Shown one piece after another: positions 18,299 to 46,048 of a stretch of 64,000 nt of DNA (the stretch's first letter is position 1; every line of letters starts with the position of its first letter). The stretch covers positions 62,001 through 126,000 of the forward strand of contig WION01000044.1 in the NCBI GenBank assembly GCA_015039365.1. Direction: 5' to 3'. The stretch comes from Amanita rubescens. Taxonomy: Eukaryota; Basidiomycota; Agaricomycetes; Agaricales; Amanitaceae. Below the pieces are notes generated by a model. That model was not told where the DNA came from. It ran no database searches and was given only the letters and a program-made list of their open reading frames with translations. The translations under genes and the position numbers were made by a program.

Positions 18299-18303
18299 CC
18301 AAG

Positions 18304-18411
18304 TGTAAGGACACTGATCCTAAGTGGACGGAGTCCGGGAACCTAGTCGCAGACGGGAACGGATGGAGTAAGTCGGAGTCCGGGACGAGGTGGGGAAAGG
18401 CTCGGCTTCAG
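18304..18411 (-). repeat. Gypsy-2 left (3') LTR, first segment
   Basis: First 108 bp of the left LTR, starting TGTAAGGAC. It matches 45156-45263 with three differences, each CpG against TpG or CpA. It stops at the TTCAG duplication (18407-18411) where Gypsy-1 entered, and resumes at 34763. It holds CGGAGTCCG at 18329 and 18374. Confidence 0.95.
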
Positions 18412-18670
18412 TGTTAGGAGGTGATCCCGACACAACCACTAGGACACTCGAGACTAGAAACGCAGATGGGAAATGAGAATACGATTGCGTCTATGGACGA
18501 CAGAAACAATCATAAGACTAAGGGACAGTAACTAGCGTTCAGGTATATATACTCGGACTCGTCACTCCCATGTCGTCGTTCCGCGGAATTCTTAAGTAAG
18601 CGTGGGAATTTCTTGTAACTAAAAAGAAAAGAAAAAGAAAAGAAATAAAAACGAAATCTCGACCGTTACA
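18412..18670 (-). repeat. Gypsy-1 3' LTR
   Basis: 259 bp, TG...CA ends, apparently identical to 34499-34757. In the sense direction its first bases (TGTAACGG) supply the last A-TG of pol and the TAA stop (18666-18668). The polypurine tract GAAGAGGGGGTGA (18671-18683 on the minus strand) lies just before it and encodes the last residues of pol. Confidence 0.95.
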
Positions 18671-20029: not shown

Positions 20030-20734
20030 TGTTGAAACTAGGGGTAACAAGTCCCTAGCGAGCAGCGCAGTATAGTACATGGAATGTACTACTTACCGAG
20101 TGTGGTGTGGAGTTGTTAAGAGCTTACTGGAGCTGGGGCTCAACAGTAGACAGTAGAGAGGATAATAGGATAAGGATTGACGCTACTAGAGTACAGTTTA
20201 TATACTACTAAACTACAAATAAGTACAAAGAGTCTTATCAGTATGAGTCACAGGTATTTGACTCATAAGGCGTCATTCCACAGCAATGCACAGCTATTGT
20301 ACAGCAATGCATAGCTTTGCGCAGCACTTGACTCATCAATTATATTGACTGACTCATCACATTATCAATCTTCAATGTGATAGGTCGATAACCATAACGT
20401 ATATATGTCTTCTATTCTCATGTCAACATATATTCACATCATCAATAGTTCCACTATTATGATTGGATGATCTTATGAGAATATCGCTAGGATATTCTCA
20501 TGTCAGAATATGTTCTCATCATCAATCATCCACTATTATGATTGGTAGATGAGTATGAGAATATGTCGAATATATTCTCATGTCAATATATTATCTCACA
20601 CTCAATCATCCACTATTATGATTGGTTGAGAGACGAGTAAGTAACTGAGCGTTATTACATTAGTTAGTGTAAACTAATGATATCACTTATATTTACTATA
20701 TGCTGTATGTATATCGTATATTATAAGTTCAACA
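20030..20734 (-). repeat. Copia 3' LTR
   Basis: 705 bp with TGTTGAA...TTCAACA ends (7-bp terminal inverted repeats). Contains three tandem related units of about 85-90 bp near 20415-20630, each with TTCTCATGTCA and CCACTATTATGATTGG. The sense-strand purine tract (minus strand of 20735-20742, reading AAGGGGAG) adjoins it. Confidence 0.95.
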
Positions 20735-20749
20735 CTCCCCTTCGCTAAG

Positions 20750-23700: not shown

Positions 23701-26700
23701 CTTGTATATTGGTGGACATAAATTCGCCCCCTCGATCGGAACGAACGATTTTTATGTTATATCCATATTGGTTGTATATTTGTTTGTGCCAACCTTCAAA
23801 TACTACAGCGACGTTAGACTTTTTTTGTAATGGTTTTACCCATACATGTGATGTACAATCATCAAATATTACAAGTAAATATTTCTGTTTATGATAAGAT
23901 TGTATAGGAAAAGTCATCAAGTCACAGTGTATACGTTCAAAGGGTTGGGTAGCACGTTTTTCTGAAAGAGGAAAGCTTTGTGAAACAGCTTTTCCTTTTA
24001 GACAACCGTTACAAGGTTCTAAGTTTTTAGGAATTGTTAAGGGAGGGAAACCCTCTAAGTTTTTAGAGCCTAATTTTAATATTTGTTGGCTAGGATGACC
24101 CATCCGTTGATGCCAAATTTCATATCCAACAACATTAATAGTGGTCATCATTAATTTATAATTTGAAGGTTTAATTATTTGACCTTCTGTCCACATTAAT
24201 GTTTCGTTACCATCTCCTGGAAATCCTTCCAGTGATGCGTTTTCAGAGCCTTCTCTGTAGAAAGAAATCCTATCATTATCTTGTTTTGCAATAAAACCTT
24301 GTTTACACAATGTTCCATTGCTTATTAGTCGTAGTGTGGCACTTGGCATATGGAGGACTGGATAAAGTTTCAATCTTGAAACCGAACCATTTTTAAGAGT
24401 GTGATCCAAAATCACAGTCCCTATACCTAATATATCTGCTTGATTATCAGCTGTGAATACTGAAGTAGGAACTTCGTATTTTTTATAGCTGACAAAATCT
24501 TCTAAGTGTGCGGTAAAATGATGTGATGCACCTGAGTCACACATCCATATTGTAAGTCCTTTATTATTTTTATAACATTCAGGACATTTGCAAGAAGGTG
24601 ATTTATCACAAATTTGACTATATGGATCTTGAAGATGTCCAATGTTGATAACATTAGCACGTCTACGATTGTTTTCTTCTATTATGAATTCATCCAAGTT
24701 ATATTGATTATAAAGTTCATCTATATGATTCTGATCATAAAGACGAGCTATTCTTTGATGATTATTTAAGTTTTCACGCATATTGGCATCAAAATTATAT
24801 AAATTTCGAAGATCCGTAGATCTTCTTGGTGTAGGGTATACAATCGGTACATTAGATGGTATTACCGGTACAGTATCAATAGTACGATTAGTTGGATAAT
24901 CATATATATTGAAAAAATCTTCATAAGGCGTAATAGGCCTTGTTGGGATTTGAGATGATGCCATAGATTCTGGAGCCGTATGGTAATCAGAATCTTGATC
25001 AGATTGATAAAAGTAATTTAAATCTGATGAACTTACAGATTCTGGTCGGAGGGATACAGTGTCATGGTCATTTACCATCCCTCTCAACATATTTTGTAAG
25101 TGTTCTAAAGTGCGTGCATTAGTATTCATTCTTCGAGCTTCCAAATTAGCTCGTCGAACTTGATCCACATAATATTGTCTGGTATGTACATACCACCAAC
25201 TTATTTGTTCATCATCAAAGGAACCAGGCATTGGTCCCTCAGGCTCCTCATCGGTATAAAGTCCTTCATACCCTGAAGAATTGGCCTCAGATTGATGTGA
25301 TTCATTATCTGTTTGATATCCTTCATTATCGGTTTGATGATGGGATATACTAGAGGAAGCAAAGATAGGACTAGCAAGATCGTCCAAACTTTGAGTATCC
25401 TTAGTATCTGCAAATATTGCAGAATCAAAGATATCAGAGTAGTCCGTTGATTCAGTTCGTACTTTTTGTACATCTCTGGATACAGAATCTCCCGAATCTT
25501 CGGATATCTCATCAATTCTCCCCATGAAGTCGTCCGTGGGAACCGCACGAGTACCTTTGTACTTGTAAATCTTGGGGACAAATTCTTCATCAAAATCTGT
25601 CATTACCTGATCTCCAATTCTGGCAATCAGAGGTAAAGATGCTGATGTCGAAGATGCCATAGCATGCCCAGAACCAAGTGTTGATTGAGCTGCTGTGCGA
25701 GCAGCAAGTTTATTCGCACGATTCTTTGCTTTAGCTGCCTTATTGCGTTCCCAATTTGGTCCTTTAGACTGATTAGGGACTTGACCAGCCCATTGGGGTC
25801 TAAAAGGAGTCTGAGATTGGCCAGGTGTATGTTTTGGTCCATTAGATGGTCCACCTGTCGAAGTATGTTGTGTTGGGTTTCTTCGATTTCCCATTGGTTT
25901 TCTTCCACCTCTGCCTCGAAAGGATTTCCCACGATAGGAATTCCAAGGGGTGCGAGGTTGTCCTTGTTGCAATTGTTGGCGTGCCATATTTGCAACTACT
26001 TGAGAGTTAGAATGTTTATTCCCTCTCGTGACAACAGAAGTATTGGCATTGTTCCTGTTACCTTTCCTTCGGGACCATTCCTCAGATATGAGATTAAGGA
26101 ATTCATCTACAGTGTCATCATCTGCGGAATGTGCCAACAGATTTGCGACAAAGCTGTCCCATGAAGGAGGTAAGGCATGTAGGATCGTCATAATTTGCAT
26201 TTTGACGGTTAAGGTTACACCTTGGTTTGATACTCTATTAATCAAGTCCATAAGATGCGGAACTTGAGTGTTTGGATTGGAATTCTCTTTGAGTTTCCAG
26301 TCGACAATTTGTCTATAGAGTCCAAACGTAGCAGCCAGACCTTGTTTACCAAATTTATCCTTTAGAGATTTCCAAAGGACTTCGGCTTTATCATTTTTAT
26401 CGTCAACAAGGTGTACAAGATTAGGTGCTAGTTTTAAGGTAATGTAACCCTTGGCTTTCATATTGTCCTCTTTGAATTCGACATATTCTTTGCGAATTTC
26501 TTTAAGGGTTTTTAACTGATCTGGCTTTATATCAGATGTCTTGATCGCCTCTTTTTCAGATGGTTCAAGATCTCTGGGCCAATCAAGTTTAGGATCAATA
26601 TGTGCACCAAGACCTTGACTGTTCAAGTACGCAGTCATAAGTCTTTCGAATGCAAGCCAATTTGATCCGGTAAGAACAGGAACAATGGAGTTTATCGAAT

Positions 26701-26713
26701 TGGAAGAAGACAT
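20750..26713 (-). CDS. Copia gag-pol polyprotein (1987 aa)
   Basis: One uninterrupted frame from ATG 26713. Gag (residues ~1-230) resembles the UBN2/Retrotran_gag type (GSNWLAFERLMTAYLNSQGL, LATFGLYRQIVDWKLKENSN). An Arg/Gly/Asn-rich basic segment follows (GKSFRGRGGRKPMGNRR) with no CCHC knuckle, then a long acidic Ser/Asp-rich spacer to about residue 700. A cysteine cluster CDKSPSCKCPECYKN immediately precedes the protease (WMCDSGASHHFTAHL). Integrase: HQRMGHPSQQILKLG zinc motif, core with FDDCTSHVWVKPLQKK, RSDRGGEFMSTNIQDYL and HQQNGKVERMNRTLWEKS. RT: KCRWVYDIKSDGRKKARLVA, LDVKTAFLYGDLEADIYMQQ, YVDDMLFMGDN. RNase H: FTDADWGADKITRKSVTGY and LSSTEAEYMSMSDTSRQI. All key residues are present. 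Confidence 0.97.
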   Translation of the reverse strand: MSSSNSINSIVPVLTGSNWLAFERLMTAYLNSQGLGAHIDPKLDWPRDLEPSEKEAIKTSDIKPDQLKTLKEIRKEYVEFKEDNMKAKGYITLKLAPNLVHLVDDKNDKAEVLWKSLKDKFGKQGLAATFGLYRQIVDWKLKENSNPNTQVPHLMDLINRVSNQGVTLTVKMQIMTILHALPPSWDSFVANLLAHSADDDTVDEFLNLISEEWSRRKGNRNNANTSVVTRGNKHSNSQVVANMARQQLQQGQPRTPWNSYRGKSFRGRGGRKPMGNRRNPTQHTSTGGPSNGPKHTPGQSQTPFRPQWAGQVPNQSKGPNWERNKAAKAKNRANKLAARTAAQSTLGSGHAMASSTSASLPLIARIGDQVMTDFDEEFVPKIYKYKGTRAVPTDDFMGRIDEISEDSGDSVSRDVQKVRTESTDYSDIFDSAIFADTKDTQSLDDLASPIFASSSISHHQTDNEGYQTDNESHQSEANSSGYEGLYTDEEPEGPMPGSFDDEQISWWYVHTRQYYVDQVRRANLEARRMNTNARTLEHLQNMLRGMVNDHDTVSLRPESVSSSDLNYFYQSDQDSDYHTAPESMASSQIPTRPITPYEDFFNIYDYPTNRTIDTVPVIPSNVPIVYPTPRRSTDLRNLYNFDANMRENLNNHQRIARLYDQNHIDELYNQYNLDEFIIEENNRRRANVINIGHLQDPYSQICDKSPSCKCPECYKNNKGLTIWMCDSGASHHFTAHLEDFVSYKKYEVPTSVFTADNQADILGIGTVILDHTLKNGSVSRLKLYPVLHMPSATLRLISNGTLCKQGFIAKQDNDRISFYREGSENASLEGFPGDGNETLMWTEGQIIKPSNYKLMMTTINVVGYEIWHQRMGHPSQQILKLGSKNLEGFPPLTIPKNLEPCNGCLKGKAVSQSFPLSEKRATQPFERIHCDLMTFPIQSYHKQKYLLVIFDDCTSHVWVKPLQKKSNVAVVFEGWHKQIYNQYGYNIKIVRSDRGGEFMSTNIQDYLTDVGIIHEKSTPYIHQQNGKVERMNRTLWEKSEALRLHASCPQSWWNFAIETAVHVYNRTPLRRTKWKTPVENLTGKKPDVSYFKIFGSKAWVFIPHESRKNKLTPRSEIMTFIGYEPNAKAYRFMTNTNQLRVSTQAEFDETKFPRAKPQDENYTKNLDPIRPIEQDNSENSDKNISDGKPNNEGDISSEQQHSDNDFFDFNLENHSSSNSSDDDDDDNKWDDKLESFFEKKDTSSKDKGVELDQPTGVELDLPVQSLKDKPTKGKGKGTAKKPVEPTRRSERSRKPVIQKDNAYGNKTPLEIEKEITEEQDVVRELIQDLKEKDKSDPRLDVTIRYSLRSKIRQHIDKVKLLYSTLHNAQINEMSCLIKEQGNGFLNYLLAQAIPAIDISRDNIRDYQYKDIQKVKIADPKSYEQWETAMNDEMKSLNDRKIWELTELPHNRTPIKCRWVYDIKSDGRKKARLVAKGFSQRPGLDYDETFSPVARYETIRLLLAISVLEKWDIEALDVKTAFLYGDLEADIYMQQPEGYVVKGQEQKVYQLKKAIYGLKQASYAWNKQANKSLEDLGFIRCLSDSGVYVRREDDTIIVCIVYVDDMLFMGDNTPEIHKVKNAFMKKWECHDLGKVKEYLGMQINYNKNMGTLIIDQHAYAKKVVTRFGLENCKPTRTPLPTGYIPTAATKECTAEMRSYFQQIIGSLLYLALGTRPDITYQVILMSQFCANPNEEHIQKALYIVRYVNTTVQTKIVYNGLNKEGFVAFTDADWGADKITRKSVTGYIVKLAGGAISWVSRKQKVVALSSTEAEYMSMSDTSRQIVWIESLMSELDFPIKTIFLCCDNQGAMFLASNPAQEHRSKHIDIRFHYIRECVESEKVKLTYIPTNEQVADIMTKNLPYSKFVIFRMKMGLILDDSQISLTNHIKASQTFANYIKSKTLNKSPGQHSKIFERIQDLEVRGYLEEIFKYYERENDKLTTLLKANK

Positions 26714-26896
26714 TTTCTTACTTTAAGTTTGTTTAAAATCTAAGAAGATTTTTCGTAAGAAAAGGTTCAAATAATAAGGCATAAGAATATATGTGATGAT
26801 GTAATTTCCGTCCTGATTTTTTAAGCTTAATGTCGTTCATGATAAAATGACAAGAATATAGTATTTTACTATCTAGTGTCAATACTAGAAAGTAAA

Positions 26897-28213
26897 CTAG
26901 GGAATATCTTTTTTACACGTCCTTTCAGGTATGTAATATCGAATTTCCGTCACAGGGTTAGATGCGAATCTAGCCCTCCTATTGTCTCTATCATCGACAG
27001 GTTTGTCGAAAATAGATTCTTTGGGTAATTTTATGTGAGGAAAGTCTTTATACCGTCCAGGAAGCCTTCCAGTTTCCTGCCATATTCCCATGTCATTACT
27101 ATATTCGTCAACAACCCTTTTTACTTCGGTTCCCTCTTGATTTGAAGGAAACACTCCAGCCGCTCTGCTTTGGGCTCGAGTTTTAGATACGATATATCCC
27201 CAACTTGCAATGTTGGGGGCGCATCTACTCCAGGTAGGTGTTGTTGACTTTCGCCATCCTTTTTGTTCTGTATTACGTTTTAGTTGGGTCTTATATACAT
27301 TAAAAGGTATATTTACCTTTCCTTTTTTGTATATTTGAGTAATCTCCTCCGGAAGAGGAATTCTGCCCCTTTCGTCAGATGCGATGCCAAGGAAATGTTG
27401 GCGGTACGCATCCGAATCCAAAGCATTAGGGATATTCGTTTTATTTTTCCATTGACGATTACCCTTATGCCAGTCGTTTTTGGTGACTGGCCTGAATTGG
27501 ACATGGGCATTGTTTGGTGGTCCATAGGACCACTCTTCCGGTTTAGTGTTGTGGATCCAAGGCGATCCACGATCTTTGTTATATCGCCAACCTTCGTTGA
27601 CGATAGTAGGTCGTCCTTGTGGACGAGAGACTGGCCCAACAGCCTTCGCGGCCTTGGCGTATGAGACTAGATTATCTTTATGAGATAAAGATGCACACCT
27701 AGTATTTCTAGAAGACTGACCTGTTGGGCTCCGCATTGATTTGGGAGCCGTCGGGACTCCTTTATAGTCGAAGACGACTTTTTGTACACAGCGGTGTACA
27801 TGGTGTATCGCATCAGGATGCGAACAGTGGCAGCCTTTTGCTGCATGAGGCATATATGGGCGCGAGCCCATGGGAACAGGATACTTTTTATAGTTCCTAT
27901 TAAGCCTCACAGCTTGAGGCGCAGAAGTCGGAACAGGAAAACGTAATGAAGGTACCATTTCTGGTACCTGTGCCTTTGCAGGCGGCGGCGAGTTCTTTGG
28001 TAAGGCCCTAACGGGGGCCTGGAGATGCCGGGCGCCAGAGCCGGGCAAATTGTTCGGGGTAGTCCGAGAGGGGACTGTCCTCGAAGAAATCGGAGTGCCA
28101 AGGGCACCGCCAGCAGAAGACAACGGCGAGAAAGAGTTTACAAACGACATTTTTATATAAATTGAAAAAATTGATTTTAAAATTTTGCTGAAATCAGGAG
28201 GTTTAATCATCAC
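26897..28213 (-). CDS. Extra Copia ORF upstream of gag, unknown function
   Basis: About 418-438 residues, in the sense direction between the leader and gag-pol; the stop is 183 bp before the gag ATG. I do not recognise it. The N-terminal ~110 residues are Pro/Ser-rich. A Cys/His cluster HAAKGCHCSHPDAIHHVHRC lies near residues 125-145. The rest is basic and Trp-containing (VNEGWRYNKDRGSPWIHNT, NDWHKGNRQWKNK, EQKGWRKSTTPTW). No protease, RT or envelope hallmark is seen and there is no transmembrane segment. The basic charge and Cys/His cluster could mean nucleic-acid binding, perhaps replacing the knuckle missing from Gag; that is inference. Start could be the ATG before KPPDF or the one at MSFVNSF. 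Confidence 0.75.
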   Translation of the reverse strand: MMIKPPDFSKILKSIFSIYIKMSFVNSFSPLSSAGGALGTPISSRTVPSRTTPNNLPGSGARHLQAPVRALPKNSPPPAKAQVPEMVPSLRFPVPTSAPQAVRLNRNYKKYPVPMGSRPYMPHAAKGCHCSHPDAIHHVHRCVQKVVFDYKGVPTAPKSMRSPTGQSSRNTRCASLSHKDNLVSYAKAAKAVGPVSRPQGRPTIVNEGWRYNKDRGSPWIHNTKPEEWSYGPPNNAHVQFRPVTKNDWHKGNRQWKNKTNIPNALDSDAYRQHFLGIASDERGRIPLPEEITQIYKKGKVNIPFNVYKTQLKRNTEQKGWRKSTTPTWSRCAPNIASWGYIVSKTRAQSRAAGVFPSNQEGTEVKRVVDEYSNDMGIWQETGRLPGRYKDFPHIKLPKESIFDKPVDDRDNRRARFASNPVTEIRYYIPERTCKKDIP

Positions 28214-29356
28214 ATAGTTCTTTGGATAAGATCAAAAGAAAGGAATGGGCGTTCAGAGCCTTCAGCCCTTACTAATCCCAGAAAACAGATAATTTGTACG
28301 CAAATTGGATGTTTCGGCACAAGTTTCGCACATCATTGTTTCTTCTTGTCATGCATGTTGAATTTGGTACTAATCGTTATGAAAGGTGTTATATTAACCA
28401 AGATCTATGTCACATTGGTATCCACTTCGATGTTTTTAGCATCTAATAACGCAGCATAATATTTGCGTGGGATATGATCCAATGTAGGTAAGAATAGCCA
28501 ACCTAAGCGTCTGACAATAGATTAAAGACTCGGGGATCGGCCCTTGTCCCTTCTTAAACGATCAAATGATAACCGTTTAATCTCTGGAATAACCATGACG
28601 ATAACGACTGCATTCCCAAATGCATGAGATAAATCCATCACTTAGATGGTCTATGGGGTCTCAATCCCCCACTAGACGTGTATGTACAAGTATTAAGAAT
28701 TAATCTAGACACCGCTGGGTTACAGCTGAGTGTATTCCTAATCTAGAGAAGTCCCTAAGGGCGCATTCTCGATAGGCAGAGTGTACGGTCCACAATGTGA
28801 CCTCATCTCACCCCTTATACTAGAATCTATTATTACTTGTACATATATTAGGTATTTTACAGGATCGAAAATCCTGATGATGGTATAGCGTGGTTCAATA
28901 CGTCCAATCACATCACACTGCCCAAGCGGAATACAGTGTGGGACGTTACCCTTTTATACGGTAGGTAATAACCGGTGAAGTTCACACTTCACAAGTGAGC
29001 CAATTTCTATTGACGCAGTAATGGTCCACTGCGAGATTTTTAAGGCGATCTAGGCCGGTTTTTAACATCATCCAAGACTGTCCCTTGTACAGGGATACTC
29101 GTAATTTAGACCGCTGAGTAATTAACGGGGTCCCCTTAGCCCTGGGTCCGGGCGTATACAATCCAGGTAAGCGGATGACTCTGAGTCTATCCCTCACTTC
29201 CCAGAAGGGTTAGCCAAGTGCGGTGACTAATCTAACAAGAAAATGAAAACCACACTGGGCGCCTCGCCCAGTTACCTTTGTTTTACCTTTTCTCTCCGTC
29301 AATGACTTGAGAGTGTGCGTCGCTTGGCTTCACAACCAATAGCGCCAAAGGCGTCT
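28214..29356 (-). other. Copia untranslated leader
   Basis: About 1.1 kb between the primer site and the extra ORF. Only short frames without motifs (for example 28982-29197) are present. It is long for a 5' leader and may hold packaging or translation signals; nothing specific could be recognised. Confidence 0.6.
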
Positions 29357-29375
29357 GGTTTCGGGGCCCATAACC
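29357..29375 (-). promoter_or_regulatory. Copia primer-binding site, initiator tRNA-Met anticodon half
   Basis: Directly inside the 5' LTR the minus strand reads GGTTATGGGCCCCGAAACC. Its first 12 bases are complementary to GGGCCCATAACC, the anticodon stem-loop region of eukaryotic initiator tRNA-Met. Drosophila copia and yeast Ty5 are known to prime from this internal site rather than the tRNA 3' end. Placement at zero distance from the LTR supports the call; the exact tRNA of this fungus is not in the window. Confidence 0.8.
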
Positions 29376-30080
29376 TGTTGAAACTAGGGGTAACAAGTCC
29401 CTAGCGAGCAGCGCAGTATAGTACATGGAATGTACTACTTACCGAGTGTGGTGTGGAGTTGTTAAGAGCTTACTGGAGCTGGGGCTCAACAGTAGACAGT
29501 AGAGAGGATAATAGGATAAGGATTGACGCTACTAGAGTACAGTTTATATACTACTAAACTACAAATAAGTACAAAGAGTCTTATCAGTATGAGTCACAGG
29601 TATTTGACTCATAAGGCGTCATTCCACAGCAATGCACAGCTATTGTACAGCAATGCATAGCTTTGCGCAGCACTTGACTCATCAATTATATTGACTGACT
29701 CATCACATTATCAATCTTCAATGTGATAGGTCGATAACCATAACGTATATATGTCTTCTATTCTCATGTCAACATATATTCACATCATCAATAGTTCCAC
29801 TATTATGATTGGATGATCTTATGAGAATATCGCTAGGATATTCTCATGTCAGAATATGTTCTCATCATCAATCATCCACTATTATGATTGGTAGATGAGT
29901 ATGAGAATATGTCGAATATATTCTCATGTCAATATATTATCTCACACTCAATCATCCACTATTATGATTGGTTGAGAGACGAGTAAGTAACTGAGCGTTA
30001 TTACATTAGTTAGTGTAAACTAATGATATCACTTATATTTACTATATGCTGTATGTATATCGTATATTATAAGTTCAACA
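29376..30080 (-). repeat. Copia 5' LTR
   Basis: 705 bp, apparently identical to 20030-20734, followed by the GTCCG duplication at 30081-30085. Contains the same triple repeat of hairpin-forming units (29761-29975). In the sense direction its first bases create the false stop that ends the Gypsy-1 pol first half. Confidence 0.95.
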
Positions 30081-30085
30081 GTCCG

Positions 30086-34498: not shown

Positions 34499-34757
34499 TG
34501 TTAGGAGGTGATCCCGACACAACCACTAGGACACTCGAGACTAGAAACGCAGATGGGAAATGAGAATACGATTGCGTCTATGGACGACAGAAACAATCAT
34601 AAGACTAAGGGACAGTAACTAGCGTTCAGGTATATATACTCGGACTCGTCACTCCCATGTCGTCGTTCCGCGGAATTCTTAAGTAAGCGTGGGAATTTCT
34701 TGTAACTAAAAAGAAAAGAAAAAGAAAAGAAATAAAAACGAAATCTCGACCGTTACA
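34499..34757 (-). repeat. Gypsy-1 5' LTR with promoter
   Basis: 259 bp, apparently identical to the 3' LTR at 18412-18670. On the minus strand it holds an A/T-rich tract, TATATATA at 34638-34631, and the presumed transcription start near AGTCTTATG (34606). Flanked outside by the TTCAG duplication 34758-34762. Confidence 0.95.
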
Positions 34758-34762
34758 TTCAG

Positions 34763-35440
34763 CGTATAAGCTGCGCCACGCACGTACGCCTTGCCTAAAC
34801 TTGGGAGGAGCGGAGTATACGGAGTCCGAGGCTATGCCTGGGTGGAACGGAGCTCGGACAACCACGGGGGGTCAACAAAGGCGTAGCCCATGACCTGGTA
34901 GCACGTAGTGTCGGAACCAAGTACGGGCTCGACGTTCACGACGATGACAACAGGAGGGTTGGTAGGGAGGATGCGTATGAGGGGATTCTGGGAAGGAATA
35001 TTGGAGGGCAATCCAAGTTGATATTCGGACTACGGTATCAGTACAGGTGAGGCCTTATATACGTAGTCCGACAAGGGGATCAATGGCCGTGTTCTGATGT
35101 GAACTGGTTAAGCGAAGAAACTATGGAGATATAGAACAGGGAGTGGAGTTGAGCATATGGTACGAAGGGATGTTGATACCAGTGATGCCCGAGGTGAAAC
35201 GAGATATGTAACGAGTAATGTGTCATATAGAGAATACGTAGAAAAGGAGACTTAGCAAATGTCAGAAGTATACGGAGTCCGATGCATGTCCGGGTGACGG
35301 GGTTGTGACAGGGTTCACGGGGTTTGGATATGGAAGGATATGAGTCGTGGCACGAGTGGGGAATGGTCGAGGGGAATAGTCGGGTGTTCACCGGAGTCCG
35401 AGATACGGGGTTTGGGTGGAGTCCGGAACGGGATATGACA
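34763..35440 (-). repeat. Gypsy-2 left (3') LTR, second segment
   Basis: Remaining 678 bp of the left LTR after the Gypsy-1 insertion, ending GGATATGACA. It matches 45264-45941 with two differences, both CpG transitions. It holds CGGAGTCCG at 34820, 35273 and 35392. The sense-strand polypurine tract AAAGGGGGAATAC (minus strand of 35441-35453) adjoins it. Confidence 0.95.
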
Positions 35441-35609
35441 GTATTCCCCCTTTAAGGCCGAGCCCTCGAGGCCATTGTTGGTGAGAAGTGGGGACGTCCG
35501 GCAGGAGTAGTGATTAACGGTGTCGCGCAAGGCACGCTGGGATAAAAACGGTATCCGCTAGTAATCGTCCGGAGTCCAGGGCCTATCCAAACAAATCCAA
35601 ATGCGGTCA

Positions 35610-35684
35610 CGTTACCTATATAATCACCATCACGACCAAATCTTATCTTCTTTTATCAACCACCATTGTCGACAGCGAATTACC
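35610..35684 (+). promoter_or_regulatory. Putative promoter of the Gypsy-2 antisense gene
   Basis: CTATATAAT at about 35617-35625 lies some 60-70 bp before the ATG at 35685, followed by a pyrimidine-rich stretch and a fair start context (ACCATGTC). No binding-site evidence beyond this; CGGAGTCCA, one base off the repeated motif, sits at about 35570-35578. Confidence 0.4.
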
Positions 35685-37125
35685 ATGTCGTCCAAAAAAG
35701 CCGAACTTCAAGCCAAGCTCGCCGCGATCCAGAAGGAGAAGGAGGAGCGAGAGAGGTGGGAGAAGGAGTGGGTGAGGCTAGAGGGAGAATGACTGGTGGA
35801 GTTGACGCGGGAAATGGCAGAGGAGGAAGCTCGTGAAGCAGAGGAGGCGGCACGAGAGGCCAAACGGAAGAAGAAAGAGGAGGCCGAGAAGAAGTTGGCT
35901 GCCGAACGGCGAAAACGTGAGGAGGAAAGAAAAAGAGCATCGGAGGCCGAAAAGGCAGAAAAGGCGAAAACTAAGGCAAAAGGGAGCGTCAAGCCACGCC
36001 CAAAGGACAAGGGGAAGGAGAAGGCAAGGGAAGGGTCACCGATGGACCTGGCAACAAACCTTGAACAGTTTGGGGATGGGCCGTCGGACAGCGAAGACGC
36101 GATGTTGTTGGCGATGGAGGCGAGTCGCAACCAGGCGGAGACCGATAGGGTCCGTAAGAAGGCGGGGGAGTCGAGCAAAGGCAAGAGGAAAACGCGCGAG
36201 CCGTCCGTCGACGAGGAGTCGTCAACAAAGGAGCGGTTTAGCTGTGATAGGTAAGTTCTCCTCTTCTCGGCTCTGGGGTTTTCATACGGAGTCCGACAGT
36301 TGCATCGCGAAAGGACAAGTATGCGAGGAGCCCGTTGGGAGGGCTTCCACTTGTCCCGCCTGCCAGCGCTCAAAGACAGCTTGTAAGGTCAACGGGGTCC
36401 GGCGGGGTGACTTGGGGAAAGTTAAGAGGCGAAAAGTAGACGCGGAGACCGGCGGGGATATGGGCGCAATCCTCAGCATTTTCGAGAAGATGCTGGAGGA
36501 GAACCGGGAGTTCCACAAGGCGGTACTGGCGGAGTTTGCGGCCAACCGGAAGCACAACGCGAGGGTGCAGAGGCTGCTGACCGAAGTGGCGGATCCGACG
36601 TACGCGTATACGCCACCTTCAGAAGAGCACGTCGCGGAAGAGTGGAGACCGATAACGGTGGAAGAGATCGAGTTTACCAACAGGGCAATGTACGAGATTG
36701 AGAAGGCGGGGAAAGTGCCCGCGGCATGGGAGTACACAGGCCCGGGTCCGGTCCCAGACTCACAGGACGTGTGGAACTGGTTCCATCGTAAGGGCGTGAT
36801 CAATCGGCAGGGGAGGTACCTTGGGGGTCACCGAGACCTCTTGTCGAAAGCGGAGTCCGAAGAAGACGAAGAAGTGGAGGTAATCGAGGTGGATGGTCCC
36901 AAGGATGAAATGAGCGGGGCTGCGAACGAAGTCAGCGAGTCCGGGGGTCCGTCGGGGCCGTCAATCGATCCAGTGACCGAGTCTACGTCGGGGAAGAAGT
37001 CGGAAGATGAAGAGGGAGAAAAAGGTGAAGCGGAAGAAACGGGGGACGAAGGCGTTGAAGGAGAGGAGAGGGACCCAGAGGTCCGGGACGTCGAGAAGGG
37101 AGTAGGGGAAATGGTAGTGGATTGA
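35685..37125 (+). CDS. Antisense Zn(II)2Cys6-type regulator-like gene inside Gypsy-2
   Basis: Encoded opposite to gag-pol, between the chromodomain end and the 3' LTR. Exons 35685-36250 and 36300-37125, intron 36251-36299 (GT-AG) splitting the second cysteine codon region; about 463 residues. Layout: N-terminal Lys/Glu-rich coiled coil (~1-100), basic low-complexity region, then cysteines at ~187, 190, 197, 207, 210, 217 in the pattern C-x2-C-x6-C-x9-C-x2-C-x6-C, matching the GAL4-type zinc cluster. A basic linker (RRGDLGKVKRRK) and a short coiled coil (ILSIFEKMLEENREFHKAVL) follow, as in dimerising zinc-cluster factors, and the C-terminus is strongly acidic, like an activation domain. An in-frame TGA at 35790-35792, probably from CGA, truncates this copy after 35 residues unless translation starts again downstream at the ATG near 35814. 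DNA binding is inferred, not shown. Confidence 0.7.
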
Positions 37126-37250: not shown

Positions 37251-37671
37251 TCATAGGGGATTAAGGGGTCCAGGCTTGGAAGGGTACCGGGTGTGAAAGT
37301 CCGTAACGACTTCTTGCGCGTGTTCGAGTTCAGTAGCAAGTACCCAAGAAGTTTCTTCATCAGTGCCTTCATAGCCAGACCAACGGACCAGATATAGGAG
37401 TTTACAAGTCCGGCGGCGATTGTCGATCTTAGAGTCTAAGACTTCTGCGATCTCATATTCAAGTTCACCGTCGACTGCTAACGGAGGCGGGGGAGACTGA
37501 GTCCGATTTGGAATGACGTTGGGTTTGAGAGGCTCTAATTGAGAGACGTGGAATACGGGGTGGATGCTACGGAGGTGTTGGGGAAGACGTAGGGTGTAGG
37601 CTTGTCTGCTGGGCTTGGCGATAATCTCAAAAGGTCCGAGGAATTTCTCTGCTAGCTTTCGGGAAGGTCGC
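37251..37671 (-). CDS. Gypsy-2 integrase C-terminus and chromodomain
   Basis: Minus-strand frame continuing the integrase after the solo LTR: KLAEKFLGPFEIIAKPSRQA (GPY/F region), LRSIHPVFHVSQLEPLKPNV, then a chromodomain (LEYEIAEVLDSKIDNRR, LLYLVRWSGYEGTDEETSWV) and TGA at 37251-37253. Removing the LTR and one TCGC copy restores the frame with the upstream integrase. It places Gypsy-2 among the chromoviruses. Confidence 0.88.
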
Positions 37672-38068
37672 TGAAACGATCAGAAGAAGGCCGATGCGGA
37701 AGTGTGTTCAGCCAAAGGGGCTTCGGAGGTCAGTCCTGGGGGTGCCTCGGAGGCAGAGAGGGTGCCGAATGCGAAGGTGAACGAGTGGAAGGTGTCCGAA
37801 GCACCGAGGAACGAAGGGAACGAAAGGAATCGAACTCGGAGCAGTAATGGGGTGATAATTCCCTAACTACAACTACGTACACAATGGTATATATACTACG
37901 GAGGCACGAGGTGACCATGTGATGAATCCTGCACCAAGTCCGAGGCCTGTGCATGCGTCCGAACACAAACGATCATCCTCCGGGGTCGAGTATAGGCTCG
38001 GAGTGCTTCGGGTAGCTTTGGAAGGCTTCGGAGATCGGTTCCAACGTAGCCGGAATCAGCTCGTTACA
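37672..38068 (-). mobile_element. Solo LTR (397 bp) in Gypsy-2 integrase
   Basis: Minus strand reads TGTAACGAG...GATCGTTTCA, flanked by the 4-bp duplication TCGC (37668-37671 and 38069-38072). It interrupts the integrase between TTR and PSRKLAEKF; the apparent integrase C-terminus CNELIPATLEP is LTR sequence. A TATA-like TATATATAC lies near 37890. It differs in sequence from the other LTRs of the window but shares the 4-bp duplication length with the element at 41449-43792. Confidence 0.85.
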
Positions 38069-38072
38069 TCGC

Positions 38073-39133
38073 GTTGTCCGGATGTGGTCCGACTTGATGA
38101 AGACTTGGTCACCAATCTGAATGTTAGGTGGTGGAGTCCATCGGGCATCCGCGGGTCCTTGATAGTGTTTCTGAGCGAGAGATATCTGTTCACGGAGTGT
38201 CTTGTGAAGTTCGTCCAAGTCCACTACAAAGTCCCTAGCGTGTTGGGAAGCAAGGTCTCGTTCGGGGTGTATGGAGATGTTGGGGTGGTAGCCCTTATTG
38301 GCAAAGAACGGGGAGACACCGGTAGAGGCGTTCGGGGAGTTGTTGTAAGCAAACTCTGTGAGAGGGAGAAGGTTCGACCAGTTGTCTTGCTGGTAGTTGA
38401 TGAAGATGCGGAGATATTGTTCAAGTGTCTGGTTGACGCGTTCCGTTTGACCATCGCCTTCAGGGTGATAACCGGAGGTGAAGTGTAGCTTCATGTCGAG
38501 AGCAGTACCCAAAGACCTAAAGAACCGGGAGACGAACTCCGAACCGCGGTCCAAAGTGACGTGCTCCGGAACTCCATGCTTTGAAAAGACGTGGATGACA
38601 AACAGTCGGGCAAGTTCCACGGAGTTGATAGTGTCCGTTGTCGGAATGAAGATCGCTTGTTTCGATAGACGATCGACCACTACCAAGATTGAAGTGAATC
38701 CAGAGGAAGCGGGAAGTTGCTCGATGAAGTCCATGGAGATCGAGTTCCAAGGTTTCTCGGGGATGGGCAGTTGCTGTAAAACTCCGTAAGGCTTATGGCG
38801 TTGTGATTTGGAGTGCATGCAAGTTGTACAGGATTTGCAATAGTTTTGAACGAAAGTCCGTAAATTCGGCCAGAAGTACTTTAGTCGAACGTGTTCTAGT
38901 GTCTTGTTCTGTCCGAAATGTCCGGAAAGGATGTGATCATGATTGTATTGAAGGATGCGTAAACGAAGGTCGTTAGAATTGGGGACGTAAATGCGGTCAT
39001 AGCGTCTAAGGAGTCCATCAGGGGCAAGTGTCCAGTTTGAATCAGAAGGTGTGGGCAGGTGAGCGGCTGATACGGGGTCCGAAGGGAGAGCGTCACGGAT
39101 GTCCGAATGAAGTTGTTCTAGGTCAATGATCAC
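38073..39133 (-). CDS. Gypsy-2 integrase (zinc finger and catalytic core)
   Basis: Minus frame with HDHILSGHFGQNKTLEHVRL and CKSCTTCMHSKSQRHKPYG (HHCC finger), then the core ILVVVDRLSKQAIFIPTTD, VTLDRGSEFVSRFFRSL, PEGDGQTERVNQTLEQYL, carrying the DDE triad. It is in a different frame from the RT ORF; conserved text of the join (TPVLRTAVIIDLEQLHSD) lies in this frame, so a 1-nt loss or 2-nt gain occurred near 39161-39170. Interrupted at its end by the solo LTR. Confidence 0.88.
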
Positions 39134-41339
39134 TGCAGTTCGGAGAACCGGAGTTGCGAGAGCTGATGCGCGTAGAGATGCAGTTGATCTTGGGTGAAAA
39201 CGGGTCTGTAGTTGTGTGGGTTGACTGCTGCGTAGTCGCTATTCCCCTCTTTTGGGTAGATGTCCCATCGTCTAGTCAAGGAGTCCGGTTTAGTACCGAG
39301 GCGACCGGGGCGAAAGCGAATGACGAGGTTGAATTGATTGAGGAACTCAGACCAGCGGACTTGTCGTCTAGTAAGTAGTTTAGTCGTCGAGAAGTATTCA
39401 AGGTTTTTGTGGTCCATAAAAACTTCCACGGGGTCCGCGGAGCCCTCAAGGTATTGTCGCCATTGCTGAAAAGCGCAGAAGATCGCCAATAGCTCTTTGT
39501 CGTGGGTGTCGTAGTTAAGTTCAGGAGGAGAAAAGGATCTAGAGTAGAAGGCTACAGGGTGTATTTTGCCGTCGTTCGTGATCAAGGAAAGGATAGCGCC
39601 AAGGGCGTAGTCCGAGGCATCAGTTTCAACAAGAAGTTTAGCGTCCGGAGTCCAGTGAACCAGGACCGGGGCTGTTGTGAACGCCGTCTTGAGCCGTTCA
39701 AATGCTGCGCGGCACTTGCTGTCGAAGTTCCAAGTAGTATGTTTGCGTGTGAGACGTGTCAAAGGGATAGTGATTTCAGAATAGTTTTCAATAAAGCGAC
39801 GATAGAAGTTGGCGAAACCGAGGAAGGATTGAATGTCTTTGATTTTGCGGGGTTCGGGCCACTCGAGGATAGTTTTGATTTTACCGGGGTCCATGGAAAG
39901 TCCGTTCGGGGAAAGGATATAGCCAAGATATTCGACCATGTCCTTGGAAAACTCACATTTCTCTAGTTTAGCAAAGAGCTTGTTCTTCCGTAGTCGTTCC
40001 AGTACTTCACGGACATGTTGTTCATGTTCCTCGGGGTTCTCGGAGTAAATGAGAATGTCGTCCAAGTACACAACAATGCATATGTTGAGCATGTCCGAGA
40101 GAACGTCGTTGACGAAACGCTGGAAGGAAGCTGGTGCATTGGTAAGTCCGAAGGGCATGACCATCCATTCGAAGGAACCATAGCGCGTGCGGAAAGTGGT
40201 TTTCCATTCATCACCGGCGGCGATGCGGACTAAATGATAAGCGTGTCGTAGGTCGATTTTGGTATAGATACGGGCTTTTCCGGGGCTGTCGAGTAAGTCC
40301 GAAACAAGGGGGAGAGGGTAACGATCCTTCTTTGTGATTCGGTTAAGACCTCTAAAGTCTACGCAGAGGCGGAGAGAGCCATCTTTCTTCTTGACGAATA
40401 GGACGGGTGCTCCATGGGGGGAAGAGGAAGGGCGGATAAAACCGAGAGAGAGGTGCTCATCCAAAAACTCACGGAGTGACTTGAGCTCTGAAGGAGACAA
40501 GGAGTAGATACGTCCGGGCGGAGGCCGAGTGCCTTCTTCAAGGTCAATTTTGAGGTCGTATGGCCGATGATCAGCTAGCGTGTCCGCCTTACTCTTACTG
40601 AATACGTCTGCATATTCCCTATACTCTTTAGGTATTTCGGAAAGATCCGGTGAGTCCTCGGGGAGCGATGAATGCCCGAAGACGGAGTTAAGGGACAGCG
40701 TAAACGAGTGAGAGCCGGGCAGTCGGCAAGCATGAGCAAAAGCCACAGCGTTAATCATAGAGATAGACGGGGTAGGTTGCGGAGTGTCAGGCGGTACCGA
40801 GGTCGGGGGGATAGGTGTAGAAGTCGCGGCCTTAGCGTTGACTTTGGGCAGAGAGGATCCTGGTGGTGTTGGCACCTTAATACGCTCAGAAGTCCGGAAG
40901 CTTATGATGCCCCATGTCCAGTCAATCAACGGATTGTGTTGGCGGAGCCATCGGTGTCCGATAACAAGTGGGCAGTTCGGGTCCAACGGAGTTACTAGAA
41001 ATTCCATAAGGAATTGGTTACCTGTGGGGAAGACGACCGGCAATTCGATCTTTCTGGTGATGAAAGTGGTGTCTGAACCATCCAGCAGGCGTAAACGGAG
41101 AGGAGATATATTTGTTGTAATGAGAGATAAGCGAGTTACAAAGGCTGAATCGATAAAGCAATGGGACGAGCCCGAGTCTATAAGAGCGGGGGTCGTCACG
41201 GAGTCCGAAACGGTAGGTAATTGTAAGGAAATGGTAAGAGAGTCCGGATCGTCGAAGGCGGCCGCGTTGAGGCGAACCATGGGTATAGCACAGCTGGAGT
41301 CGACGCAACCCTCAGCATGTGCACTCTGAGAGTTGCGGG
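39130..41339 (-). CDS. Gypsy-2 pol: protease, RT, RNase H
   Basis: Frame entered by a -1 shift from gag; the first ATG in frame is 41280, but the fusion protein should begin at the shift site. Domains: retropepsin (TPALIDSGSSHCFIDSAFVT), reverse transcriptase (GAPVLFVKKKDGSLRLCVDF, YLDDILIYSENPEEHEQHV), RNase H (LLVETDASDYALGAILSLI, DHKNLEYFSTTKLLTRRQV). Ends at a TGA that results from the indel near 39165 rather than at the natural end of pol. All RT and protease key residues are present. Confidence 0.92.
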
Positions 41340-44300
41340 CTATTTTTTTGAGCCAGACGACTCGGAAGTCGGAGGCTGCGTTGCGGAGTCCAAGGGAGTG
41401 GAGGAAGAAGCAACTGCTGAGCGGCCACGAGCGGAGGTCGCCTTGCGGTGTAACGTACCGATTCCGGGTACGTTGTACTCACTACCTCATCGCGGACTCG
41501 AACCCTCGACCTCGGGACCCTGTTCCGACAGTTCCGACAGCTCCGATGTGTCGGACTCAACCGTTTCGGATCGGACGGATGTAGTACACGAGGCATACAG
41601 TATATAGTCATGTCGTAGATAGTTTGATAAAAAAGCTTTTACTACCCCTCACTTGAGTTCACTATTCCCGAGCCCCGACGAGTGCGACCGAAGTGGACAA
41701 GCACCCTTTGGTGCTGCCGAACTCCATCGGCCGCATCGGATCATCGGAGACTGCACACCACAGTCTCCGTTTCGTTGTTACAACTGGAGCCCACCGCTCG
41801 GTCCATTTTGGATCGCACTCAACCCCGTTTTTCATTCATAAACGACCCCGGAGGTCTCATTCTACCTGGACGGCCCCACTGGCTCATTCCTATTCGCCGA
41901 TACACCTACTGGTCACGCCAAAGCGCACTGCCACTGCATTTCAGCCCGCTGAGCCCGCTATACGACGTCTACAGTCTGTCATGCCCTTATCAGATTCCAT
42001 CAGATACCATTGGAAGTCCGCCAAGCACACCACACGACGTCTACAGCCTGCCACACCGCTATCGGATGCCATCGCACCCCTGCTTCTGCATTCCAACCTT
42101 CCGACATGCACAGCGACACTCCCTCCTGCCCTTTGCACTCACCGACTCCGATCTGCTAGCCACATCGTTCCCCAGCTGCTCCTCTGACTCACCACTCGAT
42201 GCCTACACACCGCTGCTGCCTTATTGAAGCCATCGGATCCCATCAGTCATTACTGCAGACCGTCCGCATGCACCACCTTTCAGCACGTGTCATCCGCATG
42301 CACTACCCCTGTATCGCGTCCTGCCGCTTGACGCAGTCTTCGTCCCAGCCTTATCGGAGCACCCCAGCGCAGTCGCAGCCCATCGGAACCCATCCGCCAC
42401 TATCGCAGCTCATCCGCAGAAGCCGCCTTGCAGCACGCATTTCGCCATGCATCGGATACCTTCGGAGTACATCCCAGCCAGTCGTCATTATTCCACGCCA
42501 ACCCGACCCTTCATTATTCGGACTGCGCTCCTTGCCTTATCACCTCGTGTAGATCACGCTGCTGCCTCTCCTTTCACGTATCGCACTCGCTACAGCTGTC
42601 CGCCGCCACATCCTATGCCTTTCGGATGCCACCAGTACCCGGCATATGCTACCGCCATTCCTCCGACGCATGCGAGTCAAGATCTTTTTTTTTCAGCCTT
42701 TTTTTTCTTTCTACCCAGGATCGGGATACGGCGTAGCCGTATTCGTTCAGACGGCTACATCTCACGCTCATAGGACCCTCAAACACGTCTCATCACCATC
42801 GCCATCGCCTCCGCTCAGCCTTATCGCCTCAAATTGTTAACGGAGTGTGGGGGATGTTGGGACAGACTCGGATAACGGATATCAGTACGCACAACGCAGG
42901 ACTCACATTAGGCCCCTTATGACTCGACTAGCACCGCCAATTTTACCGACTTCGCCTCCGCCTTTCTTTAATACCGTATTGCGCCGACGGCGTCTCAGGA
43001 AACAACTTAGCAGCCTCAATGCAAGGGGTCAGTGCTTTTGATTGGATTACTGGGATGACCGCGATCGGGGGAGTTGCGCCCCTCCTCGCCGACATTTTCT
43101 ACCGCCTATGATGACCACCGCCGACACGCCATCTGCTATCCGCACCTCGACACGCCCCTCCTCCACATCCCGACAGCATCCGCAGCACGCCGACTGCCAC
43201 TGAGACCTCCGACACTTCCTGAACCCTATCGCCATCCCCGACTCCCCTGTTTGCGACTACCTACGCACAATCGGACGCCGTCGACACTACGTCTCACCTC
43301 CGATGCCCCTTCCGTCGACGCTGACATTCCGTCTTGTTCAATCACGGACTTCTGCTGCCCTTCCAACTCGGACACTCCGCTTCCGACACTTCACCTCGTT
43401 CATCCACCGACCCGATGCAGGTTGACGGTGACGTCAACATTCAAAACTGGTGAGCGGGTGTAACGTACCGATTCCGGGTACGTTGTACTCACTACCTCAT
43501 CGCGGACTCGAACCCTCGACCTCGGGACCCTGTTCCGACAGTTCCGACAGCTCCGATGTGTCGGACTCAACCGTTTCGGATCGGACGGATGTAGTACACG
43601 AGGCATACAGTATATAGTCATGTCGTAGATAGTTTGATAAAAAAGCTTTTACTACCCCTCACTTGAGTTCACTATTCCCGAGCCCCGACGAGTGCGACCG
43701 AAGTGGACGAGCACCCTTTGGTGCTGCCGAACTCCATCGGCCGCATCGGATCATCGGAGACTGCACACCACAGTCTCCGTTTCGTTGTTACAGCGGCAAT
43801 CTTTTGCAGAGTGTCCACCTGCACCGCAGTAGAGACATAAGTTCTTCTCCATACGACGTTTGCGTTCGTCGGTCCTCAGCTTTCCGTCTTTGCCCAGTTT
43901 TTCTGAGATATCCGGTTTTTTGGAGGAGGAAAATGGTTTGGAAGATGAAGAGTTGGCAGAGGTAGAAGTGTTATAACGAGAGCCGGAGGCCGAGTTGGTA
44001 GTGGACTTGTTGGAGCCCGGGTACGGATGTTTTTTGAATGGGGCGGGCTTGGAGTCGTCCTTCTTGGAGTCCGAGGAAGAATGTTTGGTGTCTTTGCTGA
44101 GTTTGTCCTTCGTCATCCAATAGGCTTGGTCAATCTGTTGGGCTTTGAGACGCATGCAAATGAGCGTCGTAGGTTTACCGCCACGGAGAAGTTCTGTCCG
44201 GATGCGGGCTGGGAGTCTGCGGTAAAAACGGTCACGTAGGGCCGGTTCGTTCCATTCAGTACGAGAAGCAAGTTTGTTGAAGTCGACAATGTATTTAGTG

Positions 44301-45155: not shown

Positions 45156-45941
45156 TGTAAGGACGCTGATCCTAAGTGGACGGAGTCCGGGAACCTAGTC
45201 GCAGACGGGAACGGACGGAGTAAGTTGGAGTCCGGGACGAGGTGGGGAAAGGCTCGGCTTCAGCGTATAAGCTGCGCCACGCACGTACGCCTTGCCTAAA
45301 CTTGGGAGGAGCAGAGTATACGGAGTCCGAGGCTATGCCTGGGTGGAACGGAGCTCGGACAACCACGGGGGGTCAACAAAGGCGTAGCCCATGACCTGGT
45401 AGCACGTAGTGTCGGAACCAAGTACGGGCTCGACGTTCACGACGATGACAACAGGAGGGTTGGTAGGGAGGATGCGTATGAGGGGATTCTGGGAAGGAAT
45501 ATTGGAGGGCAATCCAAGTTGATATTCGGACTACGGTATCAGTACAGGTGAGGCCTTATATACGTAGTCCGACAAGGGGATCAATGGCCGTGTTCTGATG
45601 TGAACTGGTTAAGCGAAGAAACTATGGAGATATAGAACAGGGAGTGGAGTTGAGCATATGGTACGAAGGGATGTTGATACCAGTGATGCCCGAGGTGAAA
45701 CGAGATATGTAACGAGTAATGTGTCATATAGAGAATACGTAGAAAAGGAGACTTAGCAAATGTCAGAAGTATACGGAGTCCGATGCATGTCCGGGTGACG
45801 GGGTTGTGACGGGGTTCACGGGGTTTGGATATGGAAGGATATGAGTCGTGGCACGAGTGGGGAATGGTCGAGGGGAATAGTCGGGTGTTCACCGGAGTCC
45901 GAGATACGGGGTTTGGGTGGAGTCCGGAACGGGATATGACA
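45156..45941 (-). repeat. Gypsy-2 right (5') LTR
   Basis: 786 bp, TGTAAGGAC...ATATGACA, followed by the CCAAG duplication (45942-45946). CGGAGTCCG occurs at 45181, 45321, 45774 and 45893; a fifth site is TTGGAGTCC here where the left LTR has TCGGAGTCC. TATATAAGG on the minus strand near 45560 is the likely promoter. Confidence 0.95.
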
Positions 45942-46048
45942 CCAAGTAAATATATGACGCACCCTCCAGTACTGGCAGTACATTGTCACATCTAACTACT
46001 GGGCACAAAGTCCCAGCATCTGCACATGCCCACGAGGGCACATGGAGC

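Follow-up and report, generated by a model that had tools for sequence, protein, structure and literature searches.

Does a fungal long terminal repeat (LTR) retrotransposon encode a regulator of its own family on the strand opposite to its pol gene? The question is raised by Gypsy-2 of Amanita rubescens, a minus-strand element within a stretch of 64,000 nucleotides (contig WION01000044.1, labelled C374 in this analysis), which at its full length is called the window throughout. A sequence-only reading of the window had proposed that Gypsy-2 carries an antisense gene for a zinc-cluster regulator of the GAL4 class. Our analysis supports a spliced-looking antisense gene that belongs to the element and was once under purifying selection, as well as a zinc-cluster-like domain in the predicted product. 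We consider it an evenly balanced prospect that Gypsy-2 encodes its own reverse-strand regulator, which would bind the motif arrays of the element, like VANC21 of the Arabidopsis VANDAL transposons.

The coordinates (Table 1) confirm that the antisense gene sits between pol and the 3' LTR of Gypsy-2, on the strand opposite to pol; the two genes are convergent and separated by 125 nt, the pol stop codon lying at 37251-37253. The start and stop codons of the frame were checked a second time. Once a single GT-AG intron is removed, the frame gives CDSCIAKGQVCEEPVGRASTCPACQRSKTAC, with the spacing C-x2-C-x6-C-x9-C-x2-C-x6-C, exactly as had been proposed, and the NCBI model P0001 (F5887DRAFT_919530) has the identical splice. 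The proposed basic linker and acidic C-terminus were also recovered, the former as the stretch GKVKRRKV after the cysteine cluster and the latter as an excess of D/E over K/R (34 vs 8) in the final 93 residues. Helices are predicted at residues 2-90, with high confidence, and at residues 233-276, which places the main coiled coil at the N-terminus. In the window copy, the frame is broken by a stop at codon 36, in exon 1, which the earlier reading had not recorded.

A search of the whole assembly with the exon 2 protein gave four matches among 11 scored candidates, namely the window copy and those on contigs C235, C599 and C330, the identity to the window exon 2 being 98% for C235, 95% for C599 and 62% over 117 residues for C330. 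A DNA search over the antisense gene region revealed no copy beyond these four, and the numbers from both searches are lower bounds. The gene is found in the same place in three of the four copies, while the fourth, on C330, is interrupted and shortened and adjoins an LTR remnant, which agrees with the assignment of the gene to the element. In this diverged copy, exon 1 is split by an insert of ~8.5 kb with inverted ends, exon 2 is truncated and the LTR remnant abuts the exon 1 side. The insert itself (C330:11757-20257, loci L017 and L058) has inverted ends of ~46 bp and holds a 662-aa frame, which resembles a transposase of the CACTA/Plavaka type. Each of the close copies has a private lesion in exon 1, namely the stop in the window and one-base frameshifts elsewhere in C235 and C599; hence, with C330 interrupted and shortened, none of the four copies is intact as assembled. 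The NCBI models appear to bypass the exon 1 lesions by extra introns or omissions. The C235 element is a full-length relative: its LTRs of ~786 nt differ at two of the 683 nt compared, it is flanked by a duplication of CCACC, and its gag and pol frames are open over 523 and 1324 aa, respectively, both counted stop to stop.

The spliced frame of C330 keeps all six cysteines with identical spacing. The splice sites of the intron are also retained in this copy and the intron core has diverged: between C235 and C330, 21 of 39 positions are identical in the intron without its splice sites, compared with 67 of 88 at the start of exon 2 and 34 of 41 at the end of exon 1. A search of 5.8 billion database proteins gave eight relatives among 918 candidates, four from this genome, three from JGI and one short protein from ENA; the JGI relatives are 51-58% identical and come from contigs of 1.4-6.4 kb. 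P0005 retains the cysteine pattern from exon 2 onward, and P0004 and P0006 retain the later cysteines that their fragments reach, the middle spacer of P0006 being one residue longer. The cysteines on which the zinc-cluster proposal was built are thus conserved in other copies. A profile and alignment search for wider relatives returned the same eight proteins among 7997 candidates, a search with the cysteine domain alone gave three candidates, all of them the element's own close copies, and a scan of viral contigs gave 76 matches to the cysteine pattern and no relatives.

The ratio of nonsynonymous to synonymous divergence (dN/dS) between the C235 and C330 copies is 0.25 in exon 2 (114 codons, dS 1.0, Fisher p 2e-8) and 0.17 in exon 1 (106 codons, dS 1.5, Fisher p 8e-11), the p values being computed on rounded counts and the exon 1 alignment being less sure because of its repetitive coiled coil. 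By codon position, the differences between these two copies number 27, 24 and 47 in exon 2 and 24, 29 and 43 in exon 1. The ratio is 0.37 for C235 vs C599 (p 0.015) and 0.36 for the window vs C599 (p 0.010). Values of 0.17-0.37 are not near 1, as expected of the protein-coding gene that had been proposed, with the exception of the youngest pair, the window vs C235, whose five nonsynonymous changes and one synonymous change (dN/dS 1.48) are too few to tell and are consistent with decay following insertion. An antisense frame arising by chance is ruled out by the codon tests, in which both dN/dS and the codon-position counts against the C330 copy reject neutrality.

Zn2Cys6 domains generally have the spacing C-x2-C-x6-C-x5..12-C-x2-C-x6..8-C, and CGG is the usual half-site of fungal zinc clusters. 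The cysteine spacing of the antisense product fits this pattern, and all seven of the structural matches restricted to the cysteine region are Zn2Cys6 domains, though their scores are weak. Two results weigh against a conventional zinc-cluster regulator. The Pfam profile Zn_clus (PF00172), which matches 27 other places in the A. rubescens genome, failed to recognise the product, as the spliced 238-aa stretch matched no family at E values up to 10. In addition, the two half-motifs resemble those of the GAL4 cluster in reverse order: with the cysteines left out, half 1 fits the model of a second half better (-1.9 bits vs -6.3 as a first half) and half 2 that of a first half (0.1 bits vs -9.9 as a second half). 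A leave-one-out control sorted all 9 first halves and 7 of the 8 second halves correctly, the small training set consisting of four clusters of this genome (six loci tried, two without the pattern) and five other clusters. The expected order, in which the DNA-contacting half (CxxCRxxKxKC) comes first and the weaker half second, is not found in the antisense product. Of the GAL4-class layout, the zinc-cluster-like domain and the acidic tail therefore stand, but the class itself is too specific a label, given the missing profile match and the seemingly reversed halves. A sequence search of solved structures with the family alignment gave three matches, none of them relevant (best E 0.47, to the acidic stretch of another protein), and the most conserved stretch beyond the cluster, WFHRKGVINR..GRYLGGHxDL, matches no Pfam family. 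A host locus, L003 (C776:481226-484318), has consecutive cysteine clusters, including CAACARKGYQC...CPEC, that are somewhat like the element domain, and this kind of locus is a possible source for it.

Gypsy-2 also holds a repeated word, CGGACTCC on the sense strand of the element, the reverse of which is GGAGTCCG. The non-redundant C235 copy (7,725 nt) has 18 GGAGTCCG on its + strand and none on the other, with six sites in the LTR, three in the antisense gene region, four in pol, one in the pol/gag overlap and four in gag; the motif was first noticed, as CGGAGTCCG, by reading the region and then tested on those same sequences. For comparison, when all words are counted, the commonest 8-mer occurs seven times in the Copia element (9.3 kb), five times in Gypsy-1 (6.0 kb) and four to seven times in each of 28 other Gypsy loci (L020-L047, 4.4 kb each), and six to seven times in three flanking or unrelated stretches of 10-18 kb with low-complexity words excluded. 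The word CGGAGTCCG was counted against shuffled sequence and occurs five times in the LTR (shuffle mean 0.01), three times in the antisense gene region (0.02), three times in pol (0.06) and once in the remaining gag (0.01), and it is absent from both strands of all 28 other Gypsy loci. Genome-wide, it is found at 800 places in 75.7 Mb, vs 514 for a reversed control word. Among the places listed (C1-C35), there are three clusters of at least three same-strand CGGAGTCCG within 5 kb (C5, C13 and C25), all at loci matching the Gypsy-2 LTR or its inner edge, and C16 has three in 5.15 kb. In summary, the oriented, high-density motif array is specific to the Gypsy-2 family among the elements tested.

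The array extends into coding DNA, where CGGACTCC occurs five times in gag without its LTR part (codon-shuffle mean 0.31, none of 1000 shuffles as high) and four times in pol once its overlap with gag is set aside (mean 0.41, one of 1000 as high). The 24 GAGTCC sites of C235 stand in differing flanks, with G following in 21 and CG preceding in 13. A simple CGG-N3-CCG palindrome was considered as the site and rejected: the N3 spacing is enriched (26 vs a shuffle mean of 3.3), yet the orientation is fixed and the CGG half varies more than the CCG half, so that an asymmetric site fits better.

Of 40 scored matches to the Gypsy-2 LTR in the genome, eight are close (97-100%) and 32 fall in a family that is 75-77% alike over positions 244-683. 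One of these relatives, L059 (C113:136600-140400), is a recent insertion of a gag-only LTR element related to Gypsy-2: its LTRs are identical at 686 of 686 positions, its gag frame has 413 aa and is 85% alike over 627 nt, and pol is present as fragments only. Its 2.9 kb contain 11 GGAGTCCG, none of them reversed, and ten copies of a unit, CGGAGTTT. L060 (C62:75300-82700) has the same LTR family, with an LTR pair 96.9% alike and an interior without a DNA match to the C235 element, and six of its seven CGGAGTCCG are in the orientation of its LTR. The L060 interior contains four sense-oriented open frames, 266-604 aa long. Two other loci with LTRs of this family, L056 and L057, have no CGGAGTCCG in the 3.4 kb examined. 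At the six LTR GGAGTCCG sites of C235, L059 keeps 46 of 48 bases (518 of 666 across the aligned LTR) and L060 keeps 45 of 48 (512 of 667). Random sets of windows were as conserved in 153 (L059) and 296 (L060) of 20,000 draws, a result that depends somewhat on the pattern used (309-668 with a shorter or longer one, 153-668 of 20,000 over six variants), and the two loci are related, so that their results are not independent.

How might the gene and the array work together? As we picture it, the antisense gene would be transcribed from a promoter of its own, close to the inner edge of the LTR, and its RNA would then be spliced; it could retain its intron because the genomic RNA is made from the opposite strand. 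In the protein, six cysteines would hold two zinc ions in a cluster, and the coiled coils would serve for oligomerisation. Once in the nucleus, the protein would recognise the CGG-containing CGGACTCC, which is repeated in one orientation over the LTRs and the element body, and, given its acidic tail, would most likely boost LTR transcription or prevent silencing of the element. Gag-only relatives, which have these sites but lack the gene, would be served in trans. What we infer here is the expression of the gene, the binding of metal and of DNA by its product, CGGACTCC as the target and the direction of the effect; action of the protein on its own LTR finds indirect support in the dense, oriented, CGG-containing motif of the family LTRs. 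A complete self-recognition system would pair a swapped-half zinc-cluster-like protein with a cognate array, through which the protein would activate its own family or release it from silencing and which gag-only relatives would exploit in trans; it is put forward tentatively, as a possibility that we lean against.

The main rival to this proposal is that the gene and the motif are unrelated, the former encoding an accessory protein (for nuclear import, chromatin or as a capsid partner) and the latter serving as a signal within the genomic RNA, such as one that Gag would use in packaging. Such a signal would account for a single-strand motif that is present in gag and pol, and it is favoured by the strict orientation (18 to 0), by the excess of CGGACTCC over the codon-shuffle expectation in coding DNA and by the retention of the motif in the gag-only L059, while the conserved stretch without a Pfam match would suit an accessory protein. 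We nevertheless regard this rival as rather unlikely, as L060 has the motif though its interior lacks a DNA match to the gag or pol of C235, and the CGG core of the motif is the usual zinc-cluster half-site. Same-orientation arrays are moreover seen with the DNA-binding VANC21, according to the available part of PMC5735166. Another reading makes the antisense transcript outweigh the protein, pairing with the genomic RNA and tuning silencing, with the reading frame secondary. Roles of this kind are discussed for plant elements in the accessible portion of PMC7264820, and the frames are damaged in all four copies found; it is very improbable all the same, given that dN/dS of 0.17-0.37 and the third-position bias indicate selection on the protein, which is kept in the three JGI relatives at 51-58% identity.

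That the arrays are a functionless by-product of short-repeat amplification, and the gene a genuine zinc-cluster regulator with another target, appears quite unlikely. The ten CGGAGTTT in L059 look as though repeats multiply in this lineage, but the GAGTCC sites of C235 lie in differing flanks and the LTR sites are better conserved than their surroundings. The probabilities given to these rivals are not exclusive, and repeat amplification may hold alongside parts of the other readings. It is improbable, finally, that the element captured a host zinc-cluster gene and carries it along without use. Multi-cluster host proteins seem to be present in the genome, as at L003, and copies of the antisense gene are few, which would fit a capture; however, the 5.8-billion-protein database, searched with a sensitivity restricted to shared short words, returned no host homologue, the four named matches of the eight all coming from the four copies described here. 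The gene has also been kept beside the LTR over a dS of ~1 under selection, and is hence not a passive recent passenger.

The features of the locus are collected in Table 1. A target-site duplication, CCAAG, at 45942-45946 and 18299-18303 brackets the whole of Gypsy-2. Its 3' LTR is broken by a nested Gypsy element, itself holding a Copia element, which the earlier reading had not mentioned; there is thus a three-level nesting over positions 18304-45946 of the window, with Copia within Gypsy-1 within the 3' LTR of Gypsy-2. A large share of the LTR insertions of A. rubescens was dated to within the last 5 million years in the available part of a mycorrhizal-genome study (PMC7550596). The insertion at 41447-43792 looks like a small non-autonomous LTR element. 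The C235 and C599 copies lack ~400 bp that the window has at 37671-38069, within the integrase region of pol.

Table 1. Positions in the window of Gypsy-2, its antisense gene, nested insertions and motif copies.
Feature	Position	Strand	Details
Gypsy-2 5' LTR	45156..45941	-	786 nt, TG...CA ends, holds 4 CGGAGTCCG
Gypsy-2 3' LTR, main part	34758..35440	-	683 nt, 2 differences vs 5' LTR
Gypsy-2 3' LTR, remainder	18304..18411	-	displaced by nested Gypsy element
Gypsy-2 pol	37251..41478	-	protease, reverse transcriptase, RNase H, integrase, chromodomain; interrupted in window copy
Antisense gene exon 1	35685..36250	+	charged coiled coil; first cysteine of cluster at exon end
Antisense gene intron	36251..36299	+	49 nt, GT-AG (GTAAGT...ACAG)
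Antisense gene exon 2	36300..37125	+	other five cysteines, basic linker, conserved C-terminal region, acidic tail, stop
TATATAA, candidate antisense-gene promoter	35617..35623	+	61 nt before ATG; in all three close copies
CCGGAGTCC, motif copy	35569..35577	+	~40 nt before TATA-like box; in all 3 close copies
CGGAGTCCG in 3' LTR	34820..34828	+	further starts 35273, 35392, 18329, 18374
CGGAGTCCG in antisense intron	36287..36295	+	further non-LTR starts 36851, 37227, 41199
CGGAGTCCG in 5' LTR	45893..45901	+	further starts 45181, 45321, 45774
Insertion nested in Gypsy-2	41447..43792	n/a	2.3 kb, 336-nt direct terminal repeats, 99.7% alike
Nested Gypsy-1, LTRs	18412-18671 and 34499-34758		260-nt LTRs
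Nested Copia	20030-30084		709-nt LTRs

The predicted product shares with the fungal Zn2Cys6 (GAL4-class) regulators the six-cysteine spacing, a basic linker, a coiled coil and an acidic tail, and may share their fold of two short helices around a two-zinc cluster; it differs from them in the missing Pfam match, the seemingly reversed halves, the long N-terminal helix and its encoding by a retroelement. An antisense gene of a fungal Gypsy element, brtn of Boty, was reportedly described in 2011 by Zhao et al. This gene of Botrytis cinerea likewise lies as an extra gene between pol and the 3' LTR; it can be compared by its description rather than its protein, and the available parts of the sources mention neither a zinc cluster nor a motif array (PMC7264820, PMC8365987). 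These same parts also report antisense extra genes at this site in plant Gypsy elements, and the review states their functions as unknown (PMC7264820). The plant aORF-3R genes (Grande gene23, RIRE2, Retand) resemble the present gene in their antisense position between pol and the 3' LTR and in being present in most copies of a family, and Grande gene23 further resembles the Gypsy-2 proposal in having its own promoter and a nuclear product (PMC7264820, in part). The antisense gene of Retand encodes TRP28, which is predicted to bind DNA, and tandem repeats lie in the same region, a further likeness (PMC11963269, in part). In contrast to Gypsy-2, the plant genes encode other proteins (TRP28, Smc and others), and the accessible portions of PMC7264820 and PMC11963269 report no zinc cluster; neither 'intron' nor 'zinc' appears in the main text of the Retand paper as far as it was available (PMC11963269).

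The closest functional parallel is VANC21 of Arabidopsis VANDAL21, an element-encoded DNA-binding factor whose nine-base motif occurs in one orientation and at high density in its own family and is rare elsewhere (PMC5735166, in part). VANC21 differs in belonging to a plant, to another kind of element and to another protein type, and in having its motifs mainly in non-coding DNA; it differs, too, in that its binding and the loss of methylation have been demonstrated (PMC5735166, in part). The words 'antisense', 'zinc' and 'accessory' are absent from the main text of a survey of fungal LTR elements (PMC3248453), and we found no paper on a zinc-cluster gene within an LTR retrotransposon among the titles and abstracts listed, a weak absence, as open-licence papers only were covered. 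An antisense zinc-cluster-type gene accompanied by motif arrays hence looks new, antisense genes at this site being already known.

In Gypsy-2, a recognisable type of DNA-binding domain and a dense candidate target stand in one element, so that the old question of what such antisense genes do may be reduced to a binding experiment. TnpA of DNA transposons offers a further comparison, and the self-recognition system, if true, would be a retrotransposon counterpart, independently arisen, to VANC or TnpA. It would mean that regulators acting on their own family in a sequence-specific way can be encoded by retrotransposons too, and it would show how non-autonomous relatives can exploit them.
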